In this document: piece after piece, positions 1 through 20,743 of the stretch
Layout: the number at the start of each line of letters is the position of its first letter
Position numbering within the stretch: position 1 is the stretch's first letter
Virus record (IMG/VR): IMGVR_UViG_3300029286_000288
Coordinates: 1 to 20,781 of that record
Length of the DNA: 20,781 nt
From: a virus
Reading direction: 5' to 3' (one strand)
Notes under the pieces: generated by a model
Seen by the model: only the letters and a program-made list of their open reading frames with translations
Database searches by the model: none
Told to the model about the DNA's origin: nothing
Position numbers and translations under genes: made by a program

Positions 1-3000
1 CACCGTGGTTCCCTGCGTGGTCTGCCGCCATCCCACACTCGTGAACACGGCAGCCGCGACGGACACGGGATCGTCGTTCCAGACGAATACCTTGACCTCC
101 CGCTGCCCGACCGGGATGCCCGCGGGCATTTGGAATTTGAATGTCGCTCGCCCGGCATCGGTCAGCTTCACCGTGGAATACAATCCCTGGTACAGGTTGG
201 TCCCGGCCTGGGTCGATCCCGTGGGAATAAGGGCGACAGGGACTCCATTGATCGTTCCCGCGATCTCCGTTCCGGCTCCGATGGATGTCGCATACATCCC
301 ATCAACGGTGCATTCAATGTAGAAAGGGCTGCCATCATCCAGCGTGGTCCTCATATAGGGCTGCATGGTCATGTCCACGACCCTGTCGCCCAGGTCCACG
401 GTCTTGGCGCCGGGCACCACGGACATCTGAGTCCCCGTCCGCTGATACCGCGAGATATCCAGCGATCCATACGCCCCACCGGAAGCCGAATTGGCGGCAT
501 TTTGCCACGCCGTTACCACTGCGGCCCATTCCTCGTCCGTCATCCCCGGTGTCCGGCCCTGCCAGTAAACCCCCTGATGAACGGAGCCCGTGAGATCCCA
601 TGAGCCCCACACGATGTCCTTCGCCAGGAGAGGATTTATTGCTCCGGCGAACGCCTCGAAATTTTGATCGAAATTCGTGGCAAGCTCCGGGAGCTGCTCC
701 GTGTCCTGATAATAGTCCTGCTCGGGATTGAGCTTCAGGACGCCCTGCCAGGAAAACAGATCGTCCGGATTGACGTTCTCGCTCTGGGTGGCCCGCTCCT
801 GTGAGATTATGACCTCCTCGGAGAATTGGAGCGTCATGGTCTTGCCCACCCGAGCAAACCCATTCGATAAGTCCTCGTCCAGCGTCAGCTCGATCCCCCG
901 TTGAGCCATAGGCAGGCGCACGCACTGGTTGATCGAGTCAATCGCCGCGTCGAATTTCACCCTATTGCCGAGCTTGTCCACCTTGTCGAATGCGATGTCC
1001 GCACGGCCTGAACCTGTGAGCGAGTCGGTGAGTATTCCCCTTGAAGTCTGCGCGGCCGGCGCCTCGGTCGCCTTGTCTGCCAGCGACCGGACCGCACTGA
1101 AGTATTCCTGGCGCTCGATCTTGCGAGCCAGGACCTGAATCCCAGCCTGTGTGGTTCGCAGAGCGTCAATGGGGATGAGCTGCGTGTCTTTCGCCGAGTA
1201 GGTGTAGGGATAGACTACGATGCACGCGATGCTCAGTTTTCCCGTTTGATCCGCGGGCCTCAGAGCGTCATCGCCGGGCTGCCCTGCTATCCGGGCAAAC
1301 GTGCCGTATCGGTCCACCGCGATCTTGTCCTGGCGACGGAGATAATACTCGAGGTCGAATACCGGGCTCTCATCAGGCCGCGGCCACTGACCACCCACCG
1401 TCCTGAAGTCCAGGCAATCCCTGAGCGAATAGGTCGGGTTCGGCGACTTCTCTATCTGGGGGTATAGATCGTATGAATCCGGCCCTACCCAGTCGCCCTC
1501 GACGCTGTGCCACCAGAACCGGAACGAACAGTAATAGGTATTGCCCGTCTGGGGCTGTGCGGTCGCCCGGGACCAATCCACCTCCGAGACTGCGTGGGCC
1601 AATGCAGCCGAATTCTTCAACAGCGTATAGCCCGAATACTCGGACTGCGATTGACCGGGCGAATTGTTGATCCGGAGGATGGAAACGACGTCCTTGACCG
1701 TGCCAGACAAGCCCGTGACGGCCGTCCCGTCGATGACTTTCTTGATCGTGGTCGCACCGGTCACGACTACCTGGTCCTGGCCGTCCAGGGCCCCTTTCAC
1801 GATCTGTGCGTCCGTGACCTCCACGAGCTGCCGGACCGCTTTCGTCCCGTTGTAGTTGTGCCTGAGCCGGACGTAATACGTCTGGCCGTTGCCCGGTTTT
1901 GACCCGCCGAGAGTCGAGTAGTCTATGCTGTTCTGGTTCTGGACGAAATCCACGCCCTTCCGATAGTTCCATTTGGAATCCCAGCAGTCCGCCAGGGCCG
2001 TGGAAGCGCCGAGGATGTCCGTCACGGACTCCACGCCGAGATCGTCCACATGAGTAATCCCGTTGTGGACGATGGATTTGACGATCTCGACCGAATAGAC
2101 CATGTCCGTGATCGTCTTCACGTACAGCTTTTCAAGCGGGTAGATGCGCTGCCCGGCCGTGGCATAGACGCCGACGGTCAGGCCCAAAATGCTGTATGCG
2201 TCATTCGCCACGGTCGCCAGCTCCAGGGATTCGCCCGCCCTCGCGTTGACCATCACTTTGCCGCTGATACCCCACGCGAGCACCAGCACAGGCTCCCCCG
2301 CGGTCGGATAGGCATTCACGGAGCTGTTGATTGCTGTCGCCACTTCAACGGCTGTTTTGCCGTTCCCGGAGAATGTGACCGTGTGGAAATTGCCAACCCC
2401 GACCTTGAGCTTGATGGCCTTGCCGTCCACATCGAACGTCTCGTCTTCGATCCCGAGCACCCAGCCGCCGGAATGGTCGAACGCCTCCACACCGCTGCCG
2501 TTGATCGTCCGCGTGGTCCTGGCCTTGGGAATCGTCACGGACTGCGGGGCAATGGTCTTGATCCGATACCCGTCCGGATACGCTGTGCCCCTGTTGACCT
2601 TGACCGTCAGGTTATCCGCGTCGAGGGGCAGGACCTCGATCTGGAAGGGCTCGGTAACGAATGGGCCGGAGACGTCGTATATTCTCTGCGCCACCCACTC
2701 CTCCAGCTCCGAATACATCTTCGGCAATGCAGCCAGCTTGGGTTGCCCGTCGATGAACGTGTGGACCAGTACGTCGTAGCCGTCAGTTACCCAGGCAAGA
2801 TCGAGAACCAATCTATCCATGCCCTTGCTGCCGTACGTCGGGTAAGGCCGGCCTTCATCCGGGTTTCTGAGATACTGGTCATCCAGGTATGTAACAATGA
2901 CGGGGGAAATCTTGAGGCCGACCTTTTCCGTGCCGGTCCCAATGAGCGTGACCGTCCCCTCCGGGACTTTCGGATAGTGCCCGTCGACATAGACTACGCC

Positions 3001-3570
3001 CGCCGTAATCTTCTTCACATTCGGCTCGGCCGTATCCTGGACCTGGCACCCGGAGATTATGTCACCGTTCCTATGCAGCACGTCTCCGACGTTCCGGATC
3101 GCTCCGTACGTCATGGCGAGCATGTCGGTGACTTCAGAACGCTGGTACCGACGGTTCTTGTTCGGCAGGAGGAATAACCAGTCCGGCCGGCCTGACGTAT
3201 TCACGGTTGGGGGCTGTGCCGTCCCGAGGGCCTGGCCCTCGTCATAGAGATATTTTGCAGGTGGCGCCACAGAGCCCAACAGCAGAAAATCGGAGCCGCT
3301 CTTCTTGAAAAACCGGATAGATCTCGCGGCCGCAGGGATGGAATCCACCCCGAGCCGCACCCTGTTCGACGGGCTCACGGTTGCCGGGCCGTTCGTGACT
3401 ATGAGGGCATCGCAGGGCGTCGTCTCACCCACCAGCGTGCTGAACGTGGCCCTATACTCGTAGGTGGTCGATCCGGGCGCACCCTCGACAATGCTCGGGA
3501 GCATCACGGGAGGGTTCAGGTTCTCGCCGTATCGCAGCCCGTATTGAAGCAGAATGTCATTTATAGCCAT
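1..3570 (-). CDS. DUF4815-like giant baseplate/tail-fibre protein (3' end outside window)
   Basis: The frame starting at ATG 3570 is open without a stop for all 1190 codons to the left edge, so the C-terminus is missing. An AGAGGG Shine-Dalgarno lies 8 nt upstream. Residues 1-30 (LLQYGLRYGENLNPP) look like a baseplate attachment segment. Residues 30-115 resemble an FnIII-like beta sandwich (TTYEYRATFSTLVGET). Residues 128-180 carry a helix ending in GDVLHRNGDIISGCQV. Residues 378-468 resemble a hook-IN-type beta domain also found in the sheath. YSLRDCLDFR (714-723) and NPDDLFSWQGVLKLNPEQDY (934-953) match what I recall of DUF4815 tail proteins of contractile phages. Residues 1070-1190 resemble the family's C-terminal segment (GQREVKVFVWNDDP, then an A/F-rich strand), so little may be missing. 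It is the last baseplate gene, which suits a fibre-attachment or structural fibre role; the exact function is inferred. Confidence 0.8.
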   Translation of the reverse strand, partial: MAINDILLQYGLRYGENLNPPVMLPSIVEGAPGSTTYEYRATFSTLVGETTPCDALIVTNGPATVSPSNRVRLGVDSIPAAARSIRFFKKSGSDFLLLGSVAPPAKYLYDEGQALGTAQPPTVNTSGRPDWLFLLPNKNRRYQRSEVTDMLAMTYGAIRNVGDVLHRNGDIISGCQVQDTAEPNVKKITAGVVYVDGHYPKVPEGTVTLIGTGTEKVGLKISPVIVTYLDDQYLRNPDEGRPYPTYGSKGMDRLVLDLAWVTDGYDVLVHTFIDGQPKLAALPKMYSELEEWVAQRIYDVSGPFVTEPFQIEVLPLDADNLTVKVNRGTAYPDGYRIKTIAPQSVTIPKARTTRTINGSGVEAFDHSGGWVLGIEDETFDVDGKAIKLKVGVGNFHTVTFSGNGKTAVEVATAINSSVNAYPTAGEPVLVLAWGISGKVMVNARAGESLELATVANDAYSILGLTVGVYATAGQRIYPLEKLYVKTITDMVYSVEIVKSIVHNGITHVDDLGVESVTDILGASTALADCWDSKWNYRKGVDFVQNQNSIDYSTLGGSKPGNGQTYYVRLRHNYNGTKAVRQLVEVTDAQIVKGALDGQDQVVVTGATTIKKVIDGTAVTGLSGTVKDVVSILRINNSPGQSQSEYSGYTLLKNSAALAHAVSEVDWSRATAQPQTGNTYYCSFRFWWHSVEGDWVGPDSYDLYPQIEKSPNPTYSLRDCLDFRTVGGQWPRPDESPVFDLEYYLRRQDKIAVDRYGTFARIAGQPGDDALRPADQTGKLSIACIVVYPYTYSAKDTQLIPIDALRTTQAGIQVLARKIERQEYFSAVRSLADKATEAPAAQTSRGILTDSLTGSGRADIAFDKVDKLGNRVKFDAAIDSINQCVRLPMAQRGIELTLDEDLSNGFARVGKTMTLQFSEEVIISQERATQSENVNPDDLFSWQGVLKLNPEQDYYQDTEQLPELATNFDQNFEAFAGAINPLLAKDIVWGSWDLTGSVHQGVYWQGRTPGMTDEEWAAVVTAWQNAANSASGGAYGSLDISRYQRTGTQMSVVPGAKTVDLGDRVVDMTMQPYMRTTLDDGSPFYIECTVDGMYATSIGAGTEIAGTINGVPVALIPTGSTQAGTNLYQGLYSTVKLTDAGRATFKFQMPAGIPVGQREVKVFVWNDDPVSVAAAVFTSVGWRQTTQGTTV

Positions 3571-3584
3571 TGTTGAAACCCTCT

Positions 3585-3716
3585 AACCGCAGATGACGCA
3601 GATTGCGCAGACGTCGCCCCGGACGCGATCCGGGGCCCGGGACGGGCGGGTTTCAAACCCGCCCCTACATTCCCTACATTCCCTTCATCTGCGTTCATCT
3701 GTGCCATCTGTGGATT
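3585..3716. repeat. Composite palindromic repeat cluster A
   Basis: The gap between the tail-protein-I-like gene and the DUF4815-like gene is almost all repeat. Outer inverted arms are built of CGCAGAT units (3587-3610 and 3686-3716, the latter ending ATCTGTGGATT). Nested inside are a CCGGACGCGATCCGGGG hairpin (3618-3634) and GGCGGGTTTCAAACCCGCC (3646-3664) with its CCCCTAC flank. The left arm starts just next to the Shine-Dalgarno of the following gene, and the right arm ends 4 nt from the stop codon of the preceding one. Confidence 0.85.
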
Positions 3717-3720
3717 GTTT

Positions 3721-4380
3721 TCATTCCGCGACTCCATCAACGAGGCACGACCGCGTGCCCACGGTGATCGTCTCATCGTCCATGAACACGTCCTCACGGT
3801 CCATCGTGAGGTTTTCGCCGAATTCATGCGTCAGCCAAAACGCTGGCAGGGTGTAGAACAGCCATTTCTCCCCGGCCGGTTTGATCCGTGCGCACTCGGC
3901 TTGGAACGCTGCCATATCGCAGCCCGCATCCACGAACAGCAGGAACACGCCGTCGTGGAAGAAATCCTCGTCCTCGAAGAACGCAGCGTCCCCGCCCAGC
4001 TCCCCGAGCAGGTCCAGGGTCAGAATCTGTGAGGCCATGTCCACAACGACGAGCTTCGTGGCTCCGCACTCGAGCGCGATATCTGCCACACACTCGATAG
4101 TCCCTTTGTACGACCACCTGCGGATGGCGGATGCGATCTTGCGCCTGTTCCAATCGTAACTGCGGTCCGAACGCCAGACGTGCCCGACGATATCCGAGAG
4201 CAGCGCGACCCAGCGATCGGGACACCTGTTCACACTGCGGGTGTCGAGGATATCGCGGCCCTTGCCGTGGACACGGTCGAATGCCGCATCGAGCACCTGC
4301 GTGAACCGTTCCGCTATGCGGTCAAAGTCCAGCCTGTGCCAGATCTGCGGTAATCGTTTGAAGAATGGTGTTCGTGCCAT
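3721..4380 (-). CDS. Tail protein I-like baseplate wedge protein
   Basis: This 219-aa protein resembles the P2 gpI / tail protein I group, which sits next to the J protein in the baseplate wedge and links it to fibre proteins. The visible pattern is an N-terminal LPQIWHRLD, a helix with FTQVLDAAFDRV (26-37), a conserved-looking CPDRWVALLSDIVGHVW (53-69), and a WNRRKIASAIRRWSYKGT segment (77-94) matching the family's 'KR..i..a...y..KGT' signature. The C-terminal third is acidic and aromatic (FFEDEDFFHDGVFLLFVDAG). It lies between the J-like gene and the DUF4815-like gene, the usual order in contractile tails. The ATG start has only a weak GTGGGA Shine-Dalgarno. The family is assigned by pattern and order, not by search. 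Confidence 0.7.
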   Translation of the reverse strand: MARTPFFKRLPQIWHRLDFDRIAERFTQVLDAAFDRVHGKGRDILDTRSVNRCPDRWVALLSDIVGHVWRSDRSYDWNRRKIASAIRRWSYKGTIECVADIALECGATKLVVVDMASQILTLDLLGELGGDAAFFEDEDFFHDGVFLLFVDAGCDMAAFQAECARIKPAGEKWLFYTLPAFWLTHEFGENLTMDREDVFMDDETITVGTRSCLVDGVAE

Positions 4381-4396
4381 GATCCCACGCCATTTT

Positions 4397-4636
4397 GGTA
4401 GGGGCGCTGCTTGCTGCGCCCGACCCTGTGCCGCCCCGATATCAGTTCCGTAGGATGCGGTGACCTACAGGAACCGCATCGTTCGAGATCGGACGGCCAT
4501 TGATGCGGTTCCCACGCCGGGGCGTGGTCACCACATCCTACGTGCCGCCTGTCGTCGCCCCGTTGAAAAACGGGGCCCAGACAATCCGGACCCCGGCTTT
4601 CGCCGGGGAGGCGGGCGGGTTTCAAACCCGCCCCTA
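4397..4636. repeat. Composite palindromic repeat cluster B (fills a 253-bp gap)
   Basis: Five repeat units occupy the whole space between the J-like gene and the next gene. They are a GGGGCGCTGCTTGCTGCGCCC hairpin family (4397-4425), a long inverted pair starting GTAGGATGCGGTGA (4450-4481) and ending CACCACATCCTAC (4501-4541), GCCCCGTTGAAAAACGGGGC (4556-4575), CCCCGGCTTTCGCCGGGG (4591-4608), and GGCGGGTTTCAAACCCGCC (4614-4632) with CCCCTAC. I see no gene here. The last unit supplies the TAG stop of the J-like gene. Confidence 0.85.
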
Positions 4637-6052
4637 CATAACGGCTATCGCTATCGTTCCCGGGCCGGGTATTTCACCCACGCCCGGTATTGTGTCCTCC
4701 CGCGGGGCATCGAATTCGATCCATGAGACGCCGGCCACGGCCGAAGCCGCCCGGTGTAATTCCGTGAAGGTCAGCCGTCCGCCGATGGTACGGTTCTCCG
4801 GGGCCAGGACGGTCTGGAGCGCCACGATTACGGCGGACCGGACGACTTCGGGGTCGTAACCGGCCAGGACGCCTATCCTGGCCGCGATATTGACAGGCAG
4901 GATTATGGCGTCCTTCAGGAGGTAACGCTCAGGCCAGTTCCCGAGATGTCCCCACTTCCCGAGTTCGGTCCACAGATAGTTTTTAAGGTAGCTCGACATG
5001 GGCCCGCCGCCGTCGGGCACGACGAACAGGACCACATGCATGTGGGGCCATTCGTCGCCGTAGTTGCGGTCAACGGCCTGGCAATGGAGCACACCGGGCT
5101 GATATTCCATCAACGCCCGGTAATCGCCGTCCGGGCCACACGTGACGGCCCTGCGCTGCGTCCGGGTCACAGCGGGTATCATCCTGCGCAGGGACGCAGT
5201 GGTCTCGGCCGCCGCACCGCCTGTCGCAGGTTCGATATTCGTGCATGTTATCAGGTCCCCGAACCCGTCCGGGACCGCGGTAATCATCGAGTGGCCGCAA
5301 TTTCCCGATGTTTCGGCGCACTTCACATACCGGACGTGCACGGTCTGGTCCGTGGGCGGGCCCTGGCCCTGCACGCCGTCACCGAGCACCAGCCACACGC
5401 TGTCATCGTCCCCGTTCAACTCCAAAAAAAAGTGGCGATCCTGCGCGGAGCTTCGCCACGGATGATCCACTTCCAGCCAAGCCAGCGCAGGATCGCCATG
5501 CCACAACTCGGTGCAACGTGCGGCCACTCCCCGCGGGAGCGCATATTTGGGTTTTTTCGACCAGTCGATGACGTGGAAATCGGCCGCTTCCAGGTCCAAC
5601 GTCACGGCCTCACCCTGGACTGCGTCCACTTCCGCAGACTCGATCCCGTCCTGGATGATGATCGCAGCCGCGGTCAGATACGTTAGACCGTCCGAACGGC
5701 TGAACGCCGAATATTTCGGGATGGAAATCGCTCCGGACACCCCCGACTTTCTGGTCAGCCGCAGCCGCGTGGATGCGGGCGACGCCAGGGTCGGCAGGTA
5801 CCCGACGAGCATCCCGAGATCCACCAGATACTGTTTGAATTGCGCTGTGTTGATGAACCCGGAATTGAATATGTGATCGATGTACTGGTTGATCTGGTCG
5901 GTGTCACGCGCGCTCAGACGGATCTGCACTATGCCGGGGTCCGCATGATTCCAGTCCGTGTATTCGGGCAGCTCCACGCCCAATATCGCCAGGAGCCGTT
6001 CCACCTCGGCTGTGTAATCCCGGCCCGAAAAGTTTGTCGTCGGATCAGCCAT
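4634..6052 (-). CDS. Baseplate J / gp6-like wedge protein
   Basis: This 472-aa protein has the hallmark baseplate J / T4 gp6-like N-terminus: a DYTAEVERLLAILGVELPEY helix followed by TDWNHADPGIVQIRLSA (about 32-48). These proteins form the ring of wedges around the hub. Residues 90-200 form beta-rich sequence (GVSGAISIPKYSAFSR), then a J-core ring segment (AETTASLRRMIPAV) and a C-terminal GYDPEVVRSAVIVALQTVL region. I place the start at ATG 6052 because it has AGAGG 10 nt upstream and begins MADPTTNFSG; the frame is open a further 14 codons, but only through repeat DNA. The stop TAG lies in the edge of the neighbouring repeat, so the protein ends AIAVM right at the repeat border. Confidence 0.85.
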   Translation of the reverse strand: MADPTTNFSGRDYTAEVERLLAILGVELPEYTDWNHADPGIVQIRLSARDTDQINQYIDHIFNSGFINTAQFKQYLVDLGMLVGYLPTLASPASTRLRLTRKSGVSGAISIPKYSAFSRSDGLTYLTAAAIIIQDGIESAEVDAVQGEAVTLDLEAADFHVIDWSKKPKYALPRGVAARCTELWHGDPALAWLEVDHPWRSSAQDRHFFLELNGDDDSVWLVLGDGVQGQGPPTDQTVHVRYVKCAETSGNCGHSMITAVPDGFGDLITCTNIEPATGGAAAETTASLRRMIPAVTRTQRRAVTCGPDGDYRALMEYQPGVLHCQAVDRNYGDEWPHMHVVLFVVPDGGGPMSSYLKNYLWTELGKWGHLGNWPERYLLKDAIILPVNIAARIGVLAGYDPEVVRSAVIVALQTVLAPENRTIGGRLTFTELHRAASAVAGVSWIEFDAPREDTIPGVGEIPGPGTIAIAVM

Positions 6053-6305
6053 TGTGATCGACCTCTGTAGGGGCGCCGCTTGCTGCGCCCTCATTCAGGG
6101 CGGGTTTCAAACCCGCCCCTACCATTACCACGGGCAATTCACCCGTAAACCGGCTCCCTACGATCAGCGCCCAGGCCTCTTTGATGAGATAATTGGCGTT
6201 GTGCAAACACCGCAGCGTCTCGTTGACGTCCTCTTCGCTGTGCGCCCGGCCGAGAGCCCGGACTGCGCATTCGATTCGATTCTGTGCCGTTTCGCGGTCG
6301 GTCAT
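6045..6305 (-). CDS. Small 86-aa protein with repeat-encoded C-terminal tail
   Basis: I do not recognise this protein. Residues 1-60 are helical and hydrophilic (ETAQNRIECAVRALGRAHSE; NANYLIKEAWALIVGSRF). The last 23 or so residues (VGAGLKPALNEGAASGAPTE and onward) are translated from two palindromic repeats at 6097-6122 and 6067-6090. The stop TGA overlaps the start of the J-like gene, so translation is probably coupled. GAGG lies 7 nt before ATG 6305; a TTG two codons upstream is less likely. It sits between the gp25-like and J-like genes, where contractile injection systems often carry a PAAR tip gene, but it has no PAAR signature. It may be a small wedge or chaperone protein. Confidence 0.6.
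   Translation of the reverse strand: MTDRETAQNRIECAVRALGRAHSEEDVNETLRCLHNANYLIKEAWALIVGSRFTGELPVVMVGAGLKPALNEGAASGAPTEVDHNG
6067..6122. repeat. Two palindromic repeats inside the 86-aa ORF (cluster C)
   Basis: GTAGGGGCGCCGCTTGCTGC (6067-6086, hairpin completed by GCCC to 6090) and GGCGGGTTTCAAACCCGCC (6099-6117) with flanking CCCCTAC. Both lie inside the reading frame of the 86-aa protein and abut the Shine-Dalgarno of the J-like gene. Confidence 0.85.
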
Positions 6306-6318
6306 TTTCAAACCTCAT

Positions 6319-6482
6319 CCGCAGATTGCACAGATGTCACAGACGTCGCCCCGGACTTGATCCGGGGCCCAGGACGGGCGGGTTTCAAACCCGCCCCTAC
6401 ATCTGCCATCGTTTCATCTGCGGCCATCTGCGTCATCTGTGGATTCATCCGTGTTCTCTGCGTCCTCTGCGACATCTGCGGT
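6319..6482. repeat. Composite palindromic repeat cluster D
   Basis: Same design as cluster A. A left CCGCAGATT arm (6319-6345) is followed by CCGGACTTGATCCGGGG (6350-6366), GGCGGGTTTCAAACCCGCC (6377-6395) with CCCCTAC, and then a long right arm of ATCTGCG/ATCTGTG units (6411-6482) that is extended relative to cluster A by extra CTCTGCG copies. It fills the gap between the gp25-gp53 gene and the 86-aa gene; no gene is seen. Confidence 0.85.
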
Positions 6483-6492
6483 TTCTCCCTCT

Positions 6493-7353: not shown

Positions 7354-7366
7354 GCGAAAACCTCTA

Positions 7367-7511
7367 ACCGCAGATTTCGCAGATGACACAGATGAAATCC
7401 CATATTCCCGTCGTCCCGGACTCGATCCGGGACCCAGACTCGGGCGGGTTTCAAACCCGCCCCTACATTCGTTTCATCTGCGGCCATCTGCGTCATCTGT
7501 GGATTCATCCG
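7367..7511. repeat. Composite palindromic repeat cluster E
   Basis: The third copy of the cluster A/D design. It has a CCGCAGAT arm (7368-7396), TCCCGGACTCGATCCGGGA (7414-7432), GGCGGGTTTCAAACCCGCC (7443-7461) with CCCCTAC, and a right arm ending ATCTGTGGATTCATCC (7472-7510). It separates the spike gene from the gp25-gp53 gene. No gene is seen. Confidence 0.85.
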
Positions 7512-7518
7512 TGTTCCC

Positions 7519-8475
7519 TTACTCGCTCAGCTCCTTGAATTCCGCGCCGAGGCCCGCCAGCATGGCCTGGATCGCGTCTTCGACGGGCACTTTCTTCGCG
7601 GCTTCCTTTACGATCTGCCGTGTGACTCGGATGTGGCCCTTTTCGCCCAGGATTTGGATCTGCACGTCGCCTGCGGTGACGTATGCGTTGTCCTTTTGGG
7701 AATCCAGCACGAGCGACGGGCCGATCTGTCCGGGTCCTTTGGTTGCGAATACGGCCACCATGCCGCGGCCGTCCGTGGCGAATTGGATTATCCCCTGTCC
7801 GATGAGGTCCAGGAGGCCCATGAGCATGGAGCCGTCCCGCAATATCTCGCTCGGCTTCTTCGCGGTGCCCGTCACAACCAGCTTCGTGCCGCGGCGCTCG
7901 CCTTTCCGGGGCTTGGACTCTTCGCCCTCCTTCTCCTCTTCGTCCTGCTTCTTGCCCGGAGCGGAAACGAACAGACCCGAACCGGTCCAGTCCACCAGGA
8001 ACATTTTTTCCTTTTTGCCGCGTGAATCGAAGAAGAGGGTATGCCCGGATTCGGTCTTCACTATGTTCAGCCGGGTGCGCTCACGCGGCTTCTCCTTGCC
8101 GCCGATCTTCTTAGCCTCTTCAGGTGTGAGCTGCGTGCCGGCTTCGGGCTTCTCCTGGCATGGCGGCCCTGGGATCACGAAATATGCGAACGGATCGCCT
8201 GTCAGATATCCCACGCCGACGATCTGTCCATGTTGCAGCGGCCACCAGATGCCTTCATCTCCATCGCCGGAGTTGTTCGAGCCGATTGGGTTTGCAAAGA
8301 CCTCGGCCCACGGCGTCCAATTCTTCTTGCCCTTGCCGAGCAGACCAGGGCATTCCACCCGGACACGGCCGCGTCCCTCCGGGTCTTTGACGTCCTTGAC
8401 CACACCCAGGTGGAAGGTGCACTGCTGGTTGATCAGATAAGGCGTGACAGGATACGAGAGGGCATTGTCGGCCAT
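7519..8475 (-). CDS. gp5/gpV-like baseplate spike protein
   Basis: This 318-aa protein starts with the OB-fold of phage base V / gp5 spikes: FHLGVVKDVKDPEGRGRVRV (21-40), a WAEVFA strand, then WWPLQHGQIVGVGYLTGDP (77-95). This domain caps the hub and forms the base of the membrane-piercing spike. Residues 144-174 (SGHTLFFDSRGKKEKMFLVD) look like the start of the beta-helical spike. A highly charged linker (KKQDEEEKEGEESKPRKGER, 175-194) then interrupts the beta pattern, and beta-like sequence resumes at 198-290 before a helical C-terminus. No lysozyme domain and no metal-binding tip motif are seen. The start ATG overlaps the hub stop (TAATG), so the two are probably translationally coupled. 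Confidence 0.85.
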   Translation of the reverse strand: MADNALSYPVTPYLINQQCTFHLGVVKDVKDPEGRGRVRVECPGLLGKGKKNWTPWAEVFANPIGSNNSGDGDEGIWWPLQHGQIVGVGYLTGDPFAYFVIPGPPCQEKPEAGTQLTPEEAKKIGGKEKPRERTRLNIVKTESGHTLFFDSRGKKEKMFLVDWTGSGLFVSAPGKKQDEEEKEGEESKPRKGERRGTKLVVTGTAKKPSEILRDGSMLMGLLDLIGQGIIQFATDGRGMVAVFATKGPGQIGPSLVLDSQKDNAYVTAGDVQIQILGEKGHIRVTRQIVKEAAKKVPVEDAIQAMLAGLGAEFKELSE

Positions 8476-14144: not shown

Positions 14145-16454
14145 TTACGCGGCCTGGGCCAGCCAGCCCGGCAGCGCATACATATCCGTGTAGTTGACAA
14201 ATGGCTCTCCGGTCCTCATCACTCCCATCTCGATGACGAAATAGAAGATCTGCCGAACCGGCTGTATGAGCATCCTGCACCGGTAGATCCCCCAATCGAT
14301 GTCCGGGCCGGTATTCAAAACAGCGCCCTTCAGCTCGCCTTCCGCGGTGAAGTACGCATCCTGGTCACACACCAGCGCAAACCCGTAGATCGCGCCCTTC
14401 TGGAGGTCCCGACGCAATATCGGGTTCAAGGTGCGGTACACCTCACGCCAGGTCACAGGATGATTCGGGTCGTTGATGAAGCTCAACCCGATGGGATAGA
14501 ACATCCACTGGTACTCTTTGACCTTCCGCACTACCGGCACTTCCCGAAGCGCGGACATCCTCCTCGAGAGCGTCTGACCTCCCCAGTTGTAAGCGCCCTC
14601 CATGCCGCGGGTCTCGATGCTCGTCCGCAGGATTCGGCCGTTGTTGATCTGATACTCGAAGAGCAGGTCCGCAGCCGCGGAATTCTCCGCAGGGTTGCGA
14701 TCTATCCCAAGGACGCCCTTGGCGCTCCCCCGCTTGATTCCGAACGGCGATACGTGGCGGCCCTGACCGATGTCCGTCTTGCAGATCGAGCCTGCAAGAT
14801 CCGCGAGAGCGCTCAATTCCACCCGCTCGTTGTTCCGGGTGTCGAATTTCTCGAATCGGCCGGCCACCAACGCCGAATCATGCACGTTGAATGCTGCGTG
14901 CTGATACCCGTGATCCGGATCGCCCATACGCCACGCGACAGTCTCGGTTTCATCCGTGCCCGGCGGCGTCGCGCTCCACCCGAACCGGCCCTTGCGGCCC
15001 TGGATGAACTCGTGCATGCCGGTGGTCACCACCGCTGAGGTTGTCCCGAACAGGAATATGTCGATAAACGGCATCTGCCAGTGGTCCGTGCAATACAGGC
15101 CCGTCTGGCCGTTTGGGTCTCCGAGCCAGTCCGCATCGGTGAGCACCAGGGTCCCGTCATCTCCCTCCGCCAGCACATGGCCGGTATCGCAGATTGCGGG
15201 CCAGTCCGCAGGTGCGGCATTGGGCTCGTCCACTCCGTCGATGATGCGGCCGTAATCGCTGTGCGAATTGATGTAGTTCTTCCAGTGCCGCGGATCGTTG
15301 ATATCGTTCACCAGGTCCCGGAAATACTCCTCGGGCCTGTCGGGGACCGTGATCCGCACATTCATCGCGGTGCCCGGATTCAGCTTGGAATCATAGAAAT
15401 AGATCTTCGCTCCGTTTGCATACGAACCCGGACCGATCATCTGGAATTTCCATGGGTGCTTTACCGACCCAGCAGTCCCGGAATGGACCTCCGTGTCGAA
15501 CTCGAACGCATCCAGCGCAGTCGATCCGGCTTTCGCCTGGATAGACGAACTGACGCCTGTAGTCGAAGACCGGATCGTCAATCTGCCGCCTGAACCGCTC
15601 GCCGTCGCAAGCAGCAGGGTTGCCGCGATTTGAGCCGCCGCTTCCGCCGACGTCAGCGAGAACTGGCCCGGCTCGCCATGAGCCGCAATCAGTCTGAACG
15701 ATTGGTCCGCGCCTCCGTTCACCGAGAGCACCAGAAGATCGGTGCCGACGGTGTGCGCATAGACCTGTTCGACGATGCCCAGCGCCGAGCACGCGTCGTT
15801 GGTCACTGCCATGAATTCCACATCATGCGCCGGGTCAATCACTTCGATGTAGACCTTATTGCCGATGACGGTGGCGTTCACGCCCGTGGTCTGAGCATTG
15901 ATGTCATCGCAGATCTGCTGTGCAGTCCGGGTGCCGGACGCGAGCGTGATCGTCTGTTCCGCGCCCCAGGCCCCGACGACTCCGACCCGCAATTTGAGCT
16001 TGTCGTTGGAATCGACGACGATGAGATACGGCCCCAGCTCGGTTCCCGTGACCCGGCCGGAAAGCGCCTTTTGGAACGTGAACGGACCTGCCTTGCTGAG
16101 CACGTAGCCTGCGGTGTCCACGCCGCCGCGATCGGGAAGAGCCACGAACGCAGGCAGTATGTCCAGCGTGCTGCGATCTCCGGTATCGGTGCAGTGGCCG
16201 ATACGGTGAAATACGATGTTGGCCCCGTTCTGCATGGCTTCGATGCAGTGGAGCACGTCGCGGGTCCACCGGGCCTGGTTGCCGTAGGTCTGCGTGAAAG
16301 CCTCGATGTTGTTCGACGAAAACGCCTTACCGACCCACATGGGGCCGCTCTCGGCCTGGCCGACAACCCCGACATAAGAGAGAATCAGCGGCTCGGGGGT
16401 GACCGATAGATCGAACAGCGGAAATAGGACTCTCGGATCGCCTGCATAACTCAT
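14145..16454 (-). CDS. Contractile tail sheath protein
   Basis: This 769-aa protein forms the contracting outer sheath. The C-terminal domain is clear: TWREVYRTLNPILRRDLQKG (668-687), AIYGFALVCDQ (688-698), and IYRCRMLIQPVRQIFYFVIE (723-742). The N-terminus (LSYVGVVGQAESGPMWVGKA, 25-44) fits the sheath N-terminal strand followed by a TQTYGNQARWTRDVLHCIEA segment. An insertion at about 145-320 contains two copies of a hook-IN-like beta domain (151-226 and 239-320). It is larger than many phage sheaths, mainly because of this insertion. The start has an excellent GGAGGTGA Shine-Dalgarno and overlaps the preceding stop (ATGA). Confidence 0.9.
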   Translation of the reverse strand: MSYAGDPRVLFPLFDLSVTPEPLILSYVGVVGQAESGPMWVGKAFSSNNIEAFTQTYGNQARWTRDVLHCIEAMQNGANIVFHRIGHCTDTGDRSTLDILPAFVALPDRGGVDTAGYVLSKAGPFTFQKALSGRVTGTELGPYLIVVDSNDKLKLRVGVVGAWGAEQTITLASGTRTAQQICDDINAQTTGVNATVIGNKVYIEVIDPAHDVEFMAVTNDACSALGIVEQVYAHTVGTDLLVLSVNGGADQSFRLIAAHGEPGQFSLTSAEAAAQIAATLLLATASGSGGRLTIRSSTTGVSSSIQAKAGSTALDAFEFDTEVHSGTAGSVKHPWKFQMIGPGSYANGAKIYFYDSKLNPGTAMNVRITVPDRPEEYFRDLVNDINDPRHWKNYINSHSDYGRIIDGVDEPNAAPADWPAICDTGHVLAEGDDGTLVLTDADWLGDPNGQTGLYCTDHWQMPFIDIFLFGTTSAVVTTGMHEFIQGRKGRFGWSATPPGTDETETVAWRMGDPDHGYQHAAFNVHDSALVAGRFEKFDTRNNERVELSALADLAGSICKTDIGQGRHVSPFGIKRGSAKGVLGIDRNPAENSAAADLLFEYQINNGRILRTSIETRGMEGAYNWGGQTLSRRMSALREVPVVRKVKEYQWMFYPIGLSFINDPNHPVTWREVYRTLNPILRRDLQKGAIYGFALVCDQDAYFTAEGELKGAVLNTGPDIDWGIYRCRMLIQPVRQIFYFVIEMGVMRTGEPFVNYTDMYALPGWLAQAA

Positions 16455-16807
16455 GCGCTCTCACCTCCCGGCACGGGCTCGAATGCAATCCGGCCCTGTT
16501 TCTCCCATTTGAAGAGCAGCGGTGTCCGCTCTTTCTTCAGGACCGGCTTGCTGCGGTGGATATTCAGCCCGCGCACCCTGGGCCCCAGCGGCACGTTTAT
16601 GCCGCTGCGCAAGGCACAATCGAGCGGGTCCTTCGTGAGGTTCACCAGAATGCAGTAATCGCCGTCCGGCGGCCCCGTGGGCGCTGCCTCCGCAGTCGAT
16701 GATTCCCCTCCCTCGGCGGGAGGGGTAAGGGGAGGGGGATTCCCGTCCACGGCCGGAATGTCCTCCGCCACCGGCCCCGGATCTTCGTTTTTCTTCTTTC
16801 CGGCCAT
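16451..16807 (-). CDS. Small pre-sheath protein with repeat-encoded linker
   Basis: I do not recognise this 118-aa protein. The N-terminal half is low-complexity and Pro/Glu-rich and includes NPPPLTPPAEGGESS (about 23-37), translated from a dispersed repeat at 16702-16744. The conserved-looking part is residues 48-112 (GDYCILVNLTKDPLDCALRS, VPLGPRVRGLNIHRSKPVLK, LLFKWEKQGRIAFEPV). AAGGAG lies 6 nt before the ATG. It overlaps the sheath start. Genes in this slot in other contractile phages are small, often uncharacterised proteins; a role in sheath or terminator assembly is only inferred. Confidence 0.65.
   Translation of the reverse strand: MAGKKKNEDPGPVAEDIPAVDGNPPPLTPPAEGGESSTAEAAPTGPPDGDYCILVNLTKDPLDCALRSGINVPLGPRVRGLNIHRSKPVLKKERTPLLFKWEKQGRIAFEPVPGGESA
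16702..16744. repeat. Dispersed repeat inside pre-sheath gene
   Basis: ATTCCCCTCCCTCGGCGGGA followed by GGGGTAAGGGGAGGGGGAT makes an imperfect palindrome translated in frame as the PPPLTPPAEGGES linker. Confidence 0.7.
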
Positions 16808-16827: not shown

Positions 16828-16937
16828 GCAGGCTGGAAAACCTGCCGTCTCCCCGGCGAAAGCCGGGGTCCAGTGTTTCCTGACTTTCTCTGGGCCCCGT
16901 TTTTCAACGGGGCGACGGGCGGGTTTCAAACCCGCCC
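16828..16937. repeat. Composite palindromic repeat cluster I
   Basis: The gap between the terminator candidate and the pre-sheath gene holds GGCAGGCTGGAAAACCTGCC (16829-16848), CCCCGGCGAAAGCCGGGG (16852-16869), GCCCCGTTTTTCAACGGGGC (16894-16913) and GGCGGGTTTCAAACCCGCC (16918-16936) with CCCCTAC. The last unit provides the stop codon of the upstream gene. Confidence 0.85.
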
Positions 16938-17528
16938 CTACATCTCGTCCCATTCCATCTGCACGTCCCTGATGGACGGTTTGGTCCATTCCTCGGGCCG
17001 TTCGACCCACACGTTCGACGCCTCGTATCGCTGGATGAACCTGAAGATCGGTATCGATCCGTCGTCTTCATCGAGCCGGATCGGAGGCCCTTCGGGCAGG
17101 ATCTGCACGCCCGCATCCTGGATGACCACCTCGTAGGGCGGGGGCAGAGCCGCATTCATGGCCCAGACGAACCGGTCGGCCTGGGCTTTCTCAGTCGCTT
17201 GCAGCTCGATCTGCACGGGCACGATCATCGGCGTCGGGCACGGCTTCCACGACCATGATGCCGGGCCGGTGACCTCGGTTCCGGGAGCGCCTCCCATGCC
17301 CGGGACCAGGATGGTCTGTTCTTCTTCCGAGGGCGTGAACACCTCGATATGCGGACGGGTCCGGGGCATGTCCACATACGGCAGTATGTGATAGAGCAGC
17401 ACACCGCACGGATAGACGGTCTCGCCTTTCGTCCGGTCGTCGCCGGGGCCGTAGACCGTGATGGGCTCGCCGTCCAGGGTGATCCTGGCGAGACGTCCGA
17501 GGATATGTGCTTCCAATGCTGCGATCAT
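16938..17528 (-). CDS. Tail terminator candidate
   Basis: This 196-aa protein lies between the tail-completion gene and the sheath, the normal place for a tail terminator (gpU-like) that caps the tail tube. An N-terminal helix (MIAALEAHILGRLARITLDG) followed by an alternating beta region is consistent with the fold, as is the beta-rich TPMIVPVQIELQATEKAQAD segment with a following helix. I recognise no specific signature, so the assignment is from order. I chose ATG 17528 because it overlaps the preceding stop (ATGA) and begins the helix; the frame is open upstream but only over the previous gene. The stop TAG comes from the adjoining repeat. Confidence 0.5.
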   Translation of the reverse strand: MIAALEAHILGRLARITLDGEPITVYGPGDDRTKGETVYPCGVLLYHILPYVDMPRTRPHIEVFTPSEEEQTILVPGMGGAPGTEVTGPASWSWKPCPTPMIVPVQIELQATEKAQADRFVWAMNAALPPPYEVVIQDAGVQILPEGPPIRLDEDDGSIPIFRFIQRYEASNVWVERPEEWTKPSIRDVQMEWDEM

Positions 17529-17989
17529 TTCTTGAACGCCCGTTCCACCGCATCTTCGTAGTTCGTGACCATCTTCGGGGCACACTCCTGTAAGGAGGGC
17601 CGCACGAAGGGCCTCGGCGGGACACGGCCGTCCCGTGATCCGAATTCCATGATCCAGCCGATGTCATAGCCATGCTTGGGCTCGCGGCGCAGAACCGTGA
17701 CGACGCCCTGATCCCAATTGACGCTCTGGTATCGGATGTTCCCCATCAGGGTGCCGGTGCGGATGAGCTTCTTCTCGGAATAGCCCTGCCGGACCTTCGC
17801 TGCCAGATATGCCGGACTGAGCTCGGGGCCGCTCATCTTTTGATCTTCGATCCGCTTCACGATGGCCCCTTCCAACAGCTTCCCGTTCTTGTCGGTGGCC
17901 TTCTTGACTTGGCTCTTGAATCGATCCCCGAGACCGGAGAGCATCCGTTCGATTTTTTTCCAGTCGCCTGTTTTTTGGAATGCGGCCAT
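17525..17989 (-). CDS. Tail completion protein (HK97 gp10 / phage tail S-like)
   Basis: This 154-aa protein has the recognisable signature of the gp10 / virion morphogenesis group that joins tail to head: KLLEGAIVKRIEDQKM (37-52), LSPAYLAAKVRQGYSEKKLI (57-76), RTGTLMGNIRY (77-87), and the C-terminal VPPRPFVRPSLQE (123-135), a close match to the family's 'PxRPFLxP' motif. The MEFGSRDG segment just before is also typical. The ATG has only a weak GGA Shine-Dalgarno, but lies 10-48 bp downstream of an unusual array of CGTTCAA repeats. Confidence 0.8.
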   Translation of the reverse strand: MAAFQKTGDWKKIERMLSGLGDRFKSQVKKATDKNGKLLEGAIVKRIEDQKMSGPELSPAYLAAKVRQGYSEKKLIRTGTLMGNIRYQSVNWDQGVVTVLRREPKHGYDIGWIMEFGSRDGRVPPRPFVRPSLQECAPKMVTNYEDAVERAFKK

Positions 17990-18745: not shown

Positions 18746-19138
18746 CTACCAGCTTTCCACGCCAGTCCAGGGGCTGGGCTTCCGGTCCGTCTCCACATCC
18801 GCAGGATCCGTCTGTTTCGCTGCGGCCTTCACCTGGCTGTTCAGTTCGGTCTGCAAAGCCTTCAGGAACTCCACCGCGTTCTGGAACTCGGTCTCAGCGG
18901 GCCCGCCCTTCACCCGTTGGATCTCCTGGGCGAATTTGGCCAGAAGCCTGGGAATGAGCCCCTTGGTGGCCAGGATCGAAATATACACCCTCTGCTGGTC
19001 GGTCAGGCCCGCAGCGATCCACCCTTGCAGAGCGATCTGAGCCTCGACCTGCCTCGGGATTGCGGCCTCGATGGTCGGATCGAGCCCGAGCACCGGCTCG
19101 AACTGATCCTTGACGAGCTGCACCATATCCACTGCCAT
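18746..19138 (-). CDS. Head-tail connector candidate (130 aa, helical)
   Basis: This 130-aa protein is largely helical (LVKDQFEPVLGLDP; RQVEAQIALQGWIAAGLTDQ; LLAKFAQEIQRVKGGPAETE), consistent with a head-completion or adaptor protein, and it lies between the capsid and the stopper candidate. I recognise no family signature. The ATG overlaps the preceding stop (TAATG) and has a GGGAGGAG Shine-Dalgarno that abuts a repeat. The C-terminal 20 residues are polar and may be disordered. Confidence 0.6.
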   Translation of the reverse strand: MAVDMVQLVKDQFEPVLGLDPTIEAAIPRQVEAQIALQGWIAAGLTDQQRVYISILATKGLIPRLLAKFAQEIQRVKGGPAETEFQNAVEFLKALQTELNSQVKAAAKQTDPADVETDRKPSPWTGVESW

Positions 19139-19380
19139 TAACGATCTCCTCCCTCTCCCTCTGGGAGAGGGTCGGGGTGAGGGTTGCCGGCGGCTTCTGC
19201 GTCATCTGCGGATCTCTTCATCTCCGCCAGCGCCAGCCGCGTGGCCAGCTCCGTCTTGCTCTCCCGCCCGTTGAAATCCAAACCCTTGATCACCATCATC
19301 TCGCACAGATCCCGGTGTGTGCAGTTGGATTTCAGCTCATGGATGCGGGCGGCAAGGGTTGCCATCTCAGTCTCCGTCAT
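19138..19380 (-). CDS. Small SAP/HeH-like protein with repeat-encoded C-terminus
   Basis: In this 80-aa protein, THRDLCEMMVIKGLDFNGRE plus SKTELATRLAL (21-51) resembles a SAP/HeH helix-extended-loop-helix motif ('sK.eL...L'), often nucleic-acid or protein binding. The C-terminal 24 residues or so are translated from two repeats: SADDAEA from a CGCAGATGACGCAGA unit and NPHPDPLPEGEGG from a CCCTCTCC palindrome. The start overlaps the preceding stop (ATGA) and its own stop overlaps the next start (TAATG). A role at the capsid-connector stage is inferred from position. Confidence 0.6.
   Translation of the reverse strand: MTETEMATLAARIHELKSNCTHRDLCEMMVIKGLDFNGRESKTELATRLALAEMKRSADDAEAAGNPHPDPLPEGEGGDR
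19148..19213. repeat. Two dispersed repeats inside the 80-aa gene
   Basis: A CCCTCTCCCTCTGGGAGAGG unit (19151-19170, extending to 19186) and a TCTGCGTCATCTGCGGAT unit (19196-19213). Both are read in frame as the C-terminus of the 80-aa protein. Confidence 0.8.
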
Positions 19381-19730
19381 GAGGTCTTGACCTTTTTGGG
19401 TCTTCGAGGACGGGCGGGTTTCAAACCCGCCCCTACGGTATCCGTCACGGCCGCTGCGTCGGTATCCGGTTTTGCGGTGTCCCCTTCCGGCGGGCAGACA
19501 CCCGGGTCTGCCCCTACGGCGTCTTCCACCTTATCTGAGACATCTGCGTTATCTGCGGTTGCTCCCTCCGGCGGATCGCATCGCACCAACTGCCCGAACT
19601 TCAGCGCTTGCCGTGTCAGCTTGCCGATGGGCTCGGTCAGCTCCTCCACGTCATCGCAGCTCACGCCGAACTTCGTCTCAAAATCGAAGAACGATCCCTG
19701 CGGGTTGGCGAGTTTCACATAGTCAGCCAT
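19377..19730 (-). CDS. Small capsid-proximal protein, C-terminal half built from repeats
   Basis: I do not recognise this 117-aa protein. The first 55 residues look ordinary (MADYVKLANPQGSFFDFETK; VEELTEPIGKLTRQALKFGQ) and could be a small head or connector protein. From about residue 57 the sequence is translated from three different repeats: TADNADVSD, VGADPGVCPP and VGAGLKPARP, separated by low-complexity Asp/Ala/Thr-rich spacers, and it ends in a basic RRPKKVKTS. ATG 19730 is favoured over the adjacent ATG 19733 because GAGG is 6 nt away. The gene follows the capsid gene after a repeat cluster and overlaps the next gene by ATGA. Confidence 0.6.
   Translation of the reverse strand: MADYVKLANPQGSFFDFETKFGVSCDDVEELTEPIGKLTRQALKFGQLVRCDPPEGATADNADVSDKVEDAVGADPGVCPPEGDTAKPDTDAAAVTDTVGAGLKPARPRRPKKVKTS
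19411..19559. repeat. Three dispersed repeats inside a coding region
   Basis: GGCGGGTTTCAAACCCGCC unit (19413-19431, with CCCCTAC to 19436), GGGCAGACACCCGGGTCTGC hairpin (19492-19511, with CCCTAC to 19517), and an ATCTGCGTTATCTGCGGT unit (19542-19559). All three are read in frame within the 117-aa protein. Confidence 0.8.
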
Positions 19731-19740
19731 CATTCACCTC

Positions 19741-19909
19741 GTCGCCCCGTTGGAAGACGGGGCCCAGGTCTGTAGGGGCAGGTTTGAAACCTGCCCGTCT
19801 TCAGGCGGCGTAGGGACGTAGGATGTGGTGAGCGGAGCGAACCGCATCGCTGGCCGTCCGATCGCGACCGATGCGGTTCCCCCGCCGGAGCGTGGTCACC
19901 GCATCCTAC
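19741..19909. repeat. Composite palindromic repeat cluster L
   Basis: The gap downstream of the capsid gene contains GCCCCGTTGGAAGACGGGGC (19744-19763), a GGCAGGTTTGAAACCTGCC hairpin in reversed orientation (19777-19795), and a long inverted pair: GTAGGATGTGGTGAGCGG and onward (19818-19849) with its partner ending CACCGCATCCTAC (19869-19909). It closely resembles part of cluster B. No gene is seen. Confidence 0.85.
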
Positions 19910-19912
19910 TTC

Positions 19913-20743
19913 CTACGCAGCGACCTTCTCCCAATCTGCGGGGAACCCGTACGCGCTGAACAATTTACTCATGTCGATAACGATCCGGGCCCGCTTGTTG
20001 ACGTTCTCGTAGCCGGTGATCTGTCCGACGGTCACAGCGTTCACCCAGCGTTCCGGATACCGGGCGTCATCGACTTGCAGCGGCATGAACACCAACTGAC
20101 GGGTAGCCCGCCGCGTGTTCACCAGCATGATCTTGCCGTCGCCCATCCTGCGGCTGATGATGTGCAGGACCTCTGCGGGCTGAATGTCATTCACGGGCTT
20201 CAGAGTTACCCTCGTCCCGCCCGTGCCCTGTTGGTCTCTGAATTCCTGGATCTTCCGGACGATCTTCGCGGTGGCGCGGTTCGTCACCATTGTGAACCAC
20301 TGCTGATTGATGTCCGCGCCGAAGATCCAGACATTGTCCAAATCGTCAAAGACTATCGTGCTGACAGTCTCGACGCCGACCACCTGCGCCTCGTCGCCGC
20401 CGGACCGCTGATCTCCGTTGAGCTGCGCATCCACCACGGCGTCATTCTCCTGCGCGATAATCGTCTCGTAGACCTCCCGCAGATACGGACTCAGGAGGTT
20501 GATCGGGCACGATTTGACGACTTCGTCGGACAGCTCGACAGTGCGGCCCTTCTTGGTGCACCGCACACCACGTTCCGCCGTGGTAATCTTAGCCAACGGG
20601 AAGGTCTCGGCCTCAGCCGTCTCGGCCGGCCCCGCGTCCTTGAATGTGATCTTCGGCGTAGTCGCGGTCATGGCTGAGACAGGCTCATCCGTGGCCAGGC
20701 AGAGCTGCTTGTACCAGGGAGTGACACCACCGTCCTCCTGCAA
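19913..20743 (-). CDS. Major capsid protein, HK97 fold (N-terminus uncertain)
   Basis: Residues are numbered from TTG 20743 (276 aa). The segment VRCTKKGRTVELSDEVVKSC (59-78), PINLLSPYLREVYETIIAQE and NDAVVDAQLNGD match the E-loop / spine-helix region of HK97-fold capsids ('selsdELl.dsp.dl...v...l...ia..eda..l.G'). The later VWIFGADINQQWFTMVTNR and KIMLVNTRRATRQLVFMPL fit the A-domain. It lies upstream of connector and tail genes, as capsid genes do. The frame is open up to 20776, where a TGA occurs; TTG 20743 and ATG 20671 are possible starts but neither is convincing, because RDAAIGGLQEDGGVTPWYKQ upstream of and across the TTG looks coding. The TGA lies within an inverted repeat at the window end, which may be an artefact. 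Confidence 0.75.
   Translation of the reverse strand: MQEDGGVTPWYKQLCLATDEPVSAMTATTPKITFKDAGPAETAEAETFPLAKITTAERGVRCTKKGRTVELSDEVVKSCPINLLSPYLREVYETIIAQENDAVVDAQLNGDQRSGGDEAQVVGVETVSTIVFDDLDNVWIFGADINQQWFTMVTNRATAKIVRKIQEFRDQQGTGGTRVTLKPVNDIQPAEVLHIISRRMGDGKIMLVNTRRATRQLVFMPLQVDDARYPERWVNAVTVGQITGYENVNKRARIVIDMSKLFSAYGFPADWEKVAA

Follow-up and report, generated by a model that had tools for sequence, protein, structure and literature searches.

Hairpins of 20-40 bp tagged with GTAG or CGTC make up two superfamilies of REPs (Di Nocera et al. 2013, PMC3733652). REPs lying in frame within chromosomal genes, mainly those for repair and housekeeping, are already known from that work; there clusters of REPs code for 43-82 amino acids, and flexible linkers are proposed to tolerate them (Di Nocera et al. 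2013, PMC3733652). GTAG units that supply TAG stop codons are described in the same source, as are inverted dimers, and the intragenic elements RPE-4 and RPE-6 of R. conorii – members of the Rickettsia palindromic elements (RPEs), being CGTC-tagged – are sorted with the REPs (PMC3733652). Phage genes are not discussed: the words ‘phage’ and ‘prophage’ are absent at word start, and ‘bacteriophage’ is found once, in a statement about CRISPR spacers (PMC3733652).

The DNA considered here (the window) is the IMG/VR virus contig IMGVR_UViG_3300029286_000288, analysed over its 20,781 bases (positions 1-20,781). Directly downstream of the major capsid protein gene (19913-20743, minus strand; Phage_capsid_4, E = 1.5e-6; phrog_3922 major head protein, E = 4e-10) is an ORF of 117 codons plus TGA (19377-19730, minus strand), with a GAGGTG ribosome site ahead of its start. 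Family searches with this 117-aa ORF itself gave no Pfam, PHROG or PDB sequence match. An earlier note, made from the letters of the window, had reported three repeat units read in frame in its tail, and all three are present in the frame that was claimed: a CGCAGAT array of three copies with a 9-nt period (19530-19557, minus strand; residues 58-67, TADNADVSDK), a type B GTAG-REP, GTAGGGGCAGACCCGGGTGTCTGCCC (19492-19517, minus strand; residues 72-80, VGADPGVCP), and a type A GTAG-REP, GTAGGGGCGGGTTTGAAACCCGCCC (19412-19436, minus strand; residues 99-107, VGAGLKPAR), the last a 25-nt unit of which the window has seven exact copies. The idea that half of the protein is made from repeats was overstated: the units account for 79 of 351 coding bases (23%), for 26-28 of 117 residues and for 42% of the 186-nt tail, the remainder of residues 56-117 being an ordinary linker rich in D, A, T and P. 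There is no stop codon before residue 57, and the tail would be translated, yielding the repeat-tail peptides TADNADVSDK, VGADPGVCPPEGDTAKPDTDAAAV and TVGAGLKPAR. The open tail by itself counts for little, because shuffled versions of it are open 16% of the time.

Relatives were found through neighboring genes. The tail sheath led to G002 (L004) and G003 (L006), the capsid to G001 (L002), and the conserved 130-aa gene next in order (18746-19138, minus strand) to G004, G005 and G006; the last two are one virus (99.9% identity) taken from different IMG/VR records. Searches with the first 56 residues of the 117-aa ORF or with the window capsid alone returned no or one relative, and bacterial genomes returned none; a further search with the N-domain added zero lineages, and among annotated phage records none matched the fused homologue, the next gene or the REP composite.

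The homologues are 148 (G001), 185 (G002), 158 (G003), 119 (G004) and 181 (G005) amino acids long, and alignment shows an N-domain common to all six lineages. In the window this domain covers residues 1-55 (19566-19730, minus strand) and comprises four strands, one helix and one strand. AlphaFold2 predicts that residues 1-51 of the window protein are folded (pLDDT about 90) and residues 56-117 disordered; for the G003 homologue it predicts a fold at 1-53, disorder at about 58-100 and three helices at 104-157. In G001, G002, G003 and G005 the N-domain is followed, within one ORF, by an acidic linker (linkers of the homologues are roughly 40-70 residues) and by a C-domain that we call only SAP-like, because its scores with Pfam SAP (PF02037; E = 0.012-0.12, 12-16 bits) are below the Pfam cut-off of 23.9; a comparison with the SAP domain of Ku70 (1jjr) gave E = 0.0023. 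G004 has a short form with a basic tail and without the C-domain. Homologues from five other lineages account for the layout: in general a single gene, at the position of Mu gp35, encodes a folded N-domain of ~55 amino acids and a SAP-like C-domain with a disordered linker between them.

Only in the window is the C-domain found in a separate frame. It is assigned to an ORF of 80 amino acids (19138-19380, minus strand), which matches the C-domain profile over 46 colinear columns (hhalign, E = 6e-4, with a probability of only 28%) and whose counterpart shares one ORF with the N-domain in all but one of the five other lineages. The stop of the 117-aa ORF and the start of the 80-aa ORF overlap in the sequence ATGA (19377-19380, minus strand), and this start coincides with the onset of C-domain conservation. 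The 80-aa ORF has repeats of its own: its tail contains a CGCAGAA/CGCAGAT pair in frame as SADDAEA (19195-19210, minus strand), and it ends in a CCCTCTCCC hairpin in frame as NPHPDPLPEGEG (19151-19171, minus strand; terminal SADDAEAAGNPHPDPLPEGEG), of the family found as an in-gene insert in G005. In the window the C-domain became, or remained, a separate overlapping ORF; the simplest reading is that it is made, probably, by coupled re-initiation at the ATGA. Programmed -1 frameshifting at CCCAAAAAGG, which would join both ORFs of the window in a single protein, is very unlikely. The C-domain ORF does occupy the -1 frame and, in the upstream direction, stays open across both GTAG-REPs, but the codons of the 0 frame read CCC AAA AAG, which is not an X XXY YYZ phase, and the strong hairpin is on the upstream side of the run, not on the downstream side. 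Both the phased slippery heptamer and the downstream hairpin are therefore missing.

The separate frame might also be read as decay: insertion of repeats would have broken a two-domain gene, leaving a pseudogene with an accidentally readable frame. This would explain why the C-domain stands in another frame in the window only, and is in keeping with the share of shuffled tails that stay open and with repeat units that are open in most frames. We nevertheless regard it as improbable, since the N-domain still has 65% protein identity to that of G001, the ATGA overlap is tidy, the second ORF begins where C-domain conservation begins, and the G004 form indicates that a short protein without the C-domain can work.

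In every lineage the repeats of the capsid-adjacent gene are restricted to the linker and are never in the folded domains. The linker of the window contains the CGCAGAT array and two GTAG-REPs; that of G001 contains one GTAG-REP; that of G002 contains a GTAG-REP dimer (two hairpins), which constitutes a 29-aa in-frame insert relative to G003 – a virus 88% identical to it at the nucleotide level over 23 kb. The REPs of G001 and G002 occupy the site of the type B unit of the window, and must be read through because the conserved C-domain comes next in frame. At the same place the linker of G005/G006 carries a CCCTCTCCC hairpin, a family unrelated to the GTAG-REPs. The claim made for the window, that one gene holds a stack of several families, is borne out. 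The linkers of G003 and G004 are repeat-free, but the spacer that immediately precedes the gene in G003 holds a REP dimer. Because type B is at one site in three lineages (window, G001 and G002), one or more of the insertions may be of old date, and the three may go back to a single event and not to repeated hits. The same arrangement of a REP dimer is seen twice, intergenic in G001 (24337-24408) and inside the capsid-adjacent gene in G002 (441-515), with a 75-nt match; such placement is what one expects of a mobile REPIN-like unit.

These comparisons bear on the proposal of the earlier note that the protein was recently elongated. Repeat-free homologues do exist (G003, 158 aa; G004, 119 aa), but repeats added to a 55-residue protein do not by themselves account for the gene, because the homologues already possess a linker of ~40-70 residues and four of the five other lineages possess the SAP-like C-domain. 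A repeat-free homologue having the same C-terminal half as the window protein was looked for, and there is none among the homologues. The repeats of the window decorate a linker that is old.

Sequence relationships change abruptly at the REP. Between the window and G001 protein identity is 65% in the N-domain and 25% in the C-part; between G001 and G002/G003 it is 37% in the N-domain and 82% in the C-part. Compared as nucleotides over this gene, G001 and G002 match from 14662/488 onward, a point lying two bases outside the REP, and the match continues through the C-domain, the shared half being about 78-84% identical. Given that nucleotide similarity starts at the REP, the REP marks a mosaic breakpoint, where two histories meet. 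It may have served as the recombination patch, or insertion and joint may merely have settled at one tolerant place. Chimeric assembly of this half was considered and rejected, the exchanged halves being only about 80% identical. Every contig is metagenomic, and the repeats as a whole could be put down to an assembly or sequencing artefact; we give this next to no weight, because the repeats occur in several independent contigs, G005 and G006 agree at 99.9% although they come from different records, and a chimera would have given a shared half of 100% identity, not one of about 78-84%.

A breakpoint at the REP raises the question of whether REPs are kept by selection, either as recombination joints for the exchange of N- and C-halves or as RNA elements that tune the capsid-operon mRNA. 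Two further observations agree with this. Among the tagged hairpins of G001-G003, five of ten lie within the 1.8% of sequence that runs from the capsid stop to the end of the gene, a concentration that is overstated, since the region was picked in hindsight and some of the copies share ancestry (the other tagged hairpins of these contigs are intergenic or not clearly coding), and RNA of the linker folds better than shuffles (z = -2.3). The boundary cases are few, however, and linkers free of repeats have lasted in G003 and G004; selection for the REPs is accordingly a doubtful reading, though not a negligible one. We put forward with similar hesitation, as a guess rather than an expectation, the broader idea that REPs in phage virion genes are ready-made, frame-tolerant joints: having landed in disordered linkers, they would provide phages with short stretches of common sequence where protein domains can be swapped. 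If true, the repeat population of the host would drive domain shuffling in virus particles.

The linker is one of many places in the window where such repeats occur. Tagged hairpins number 19 (11 GTAG and 8 CGTC), compared to a mean of 1.2 and a maximum of four in shuffles, and CGCAGAT words number 24 compared to 4.1 expected: both are far above chance. The hairpins are GTAG- and CGTC-REPs. GTAG copies, two of 11 of which are in the 117-aa ORF, are palindromes of 20-40 bp with an unpaired GTAG at one end; they are present in many copies (type A in seven exact ones), form inverted dimers (in G001, G002 and G003) and supply TAG stop codons, in the window those of the baseplate J gene (4613-4637, minus strand) and of gene 16938-17585 (16917-16941, minus strand). 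The exact type A unit is also present in 17 other IMG/VR contigs (L007-L023).

The earlier note had described the other copies that lie between genes in the window as non-coding. Intergenic copies exist: the spacer of the capsid gene contains a CGTC-REP (19740-19763) and a GTAG-REP (19772-19796; together 19740-19796, plus strand), plus a 93-nt CGTAGGATG...CATCCTAC repeat (19817-19909, plus strand) that has a second copy at 4449-4541. Three composite intergenic blocks (3587-3730, 6319-6490 and 7365-7519) consist of a CGTC-REP and a GTAG-REP nested in CGCAGAT arrays, in the same order each time. But coding copies exist as well, in addition to the TAG stops of the two genes: besides those of 19138-19380, a GTAG-REP dimer (6067-6090 and 6098-6122; terminal VGAGLKPALNEGAASGA) forms the tail, that is the last ~25 residues, of an 88-aa ORF (6045-6311, minus strand) for which a homologue was looked for in the relatives and not found, and the gene before the sheath (16451-16807, minus strand), which carries NPPPLTPPAEGGESS, has an in-frame hairpin insert at residues 19-41 (16685-16753).

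This sheath-proximal gene is a second landing site: in-frame hairpin inserts near the N-terminus are present in the window, in G002 (3361-3711) and in G005 (25466-25849), while the gene in G001, G003 and G004 is without one. A portal-type protein of G005 (33089-35578, minus strand) has an in-frame LTPPSPARGER hairpin insert at residues 459-486, with conserved parts on either side. Over 60 ortholog clusters a hairpin was found in 17 of 96 internal insertions of at least 8 amino acids, compared to 3.0% of background windows; the 17 include some that are not repeat elements, and the inserts differ in length whereas each background window is 60 nt. Cross-hits show a related domain of ~100 amino acids recurring in the sheath (14145-16454, residues about 125-235), in the gp37-position protein of the relatives (homologues of 16938-17585) and in the long tail protein (1-3570, residues about 385-470).

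Taken as a whole, the explanation we consider probable is that repeats landed repeatedly in the disordered linker of a Mu gp35-like two-part gene and were mostly tolerated. The gene would belong to the head region, and in its product a disordered linker would join the folded N-domain to a SAP/HeH-like C-domain. GTAG-REPs, CCCTCTCCC hairpins and CGCAGAT arrays would be short palindromic repeats that are mobile or amplified, that were presumably moved by enzymes of the host while in its cell, and that landed in the linker several times. GTAG-REPs as a class are linked to a RAYT, a Y1 transposase; a PF01797 gene was looked for in the seven contigs and not found in any. Plasmid matches to the REP composite are short (27-39 nt) and scattered over sphingomonads and a cyanobacterium, and therefore identify no host. 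Copies that kept the frame would have survived because the linker is disordered and five of the six frames are open in these units. In the window the translated linker would include one CGCAGAT array along with two GTAG-REPs, and the C-domain would come from the ATGA-overlapping ORF. Most repeats would be near-neutral passengers, with the REP of G001 and G002 marking – and maybe having served as – the joint where the C-terminal half was exchanged. Selfish repeats that in bacteria are usually intergenic would then be built, as parasitic DNA and probably harmlessly, into the linker of a virus protein. G002 and G003 (88% nucleotide identity) offer a with-and-without pair for the effects of insertions on a protein, and such pairs are also suited to asking whether repeats seed modular exchange between phages.

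The gene itself resembles Mu gp35/HI1506 (PDB 2OUT) in its place, a Mu-like head module in which it comes straight after the gene for the major capsid protein. HI1506 has an N-domain, an unstructured linker and a helical C-domain, and the predicted structure of the G003 homologue suggests the same plan of two folded domains plus an unstructured linker. The gene for YqbF, in the skin element of B. subtilis, also comes directly after a capsid gene. For the fused homologue the top Foldseek hit was 2OUT, titled ‘a novel two domain protein’, with a weak score (E = 0.74, probability 0.12); for the N-domain, YqbF (2HJQ) was second by E-value, again weak (E = 0.65), and had the highest probability (0.60). 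A gp35-like role is likely, given the position after the capsid gene and the Mu-like neighbors in G003 (Mu Gp27 and GpA_ATPase terminase).

As to the repeats, the earlier note's comparison with Rickettsia was apt in that these are in-frame palindromic elements of the same class inside protein genes: in G001 and G002 the REP stands between two conserved in-frame domains. It fails on the tag, which in the hairpins of the capsid-adjacent gene is GTAG, unlike the CGTC of RPE-4 and RPE-6; CGTC copies are found only outside this gene. With the REPs of Di Nocera et al. the repeats share tagged hairpins, inverted dimers, TAG stops and in-frame copies within ORFs. Those REPs, however, were described in chromosomal genes, whereas here they are in virion-module genes, in one linker, with unrelated families, and at a recombination boundary. 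In the literature searched the setting – virion-module genes of uncultivated Mu-like contractile-tail phages – is not described, and what appears to be new is the presence of REPs in virion genes, a single recurrent linker, different families at one site and a recombination joint.
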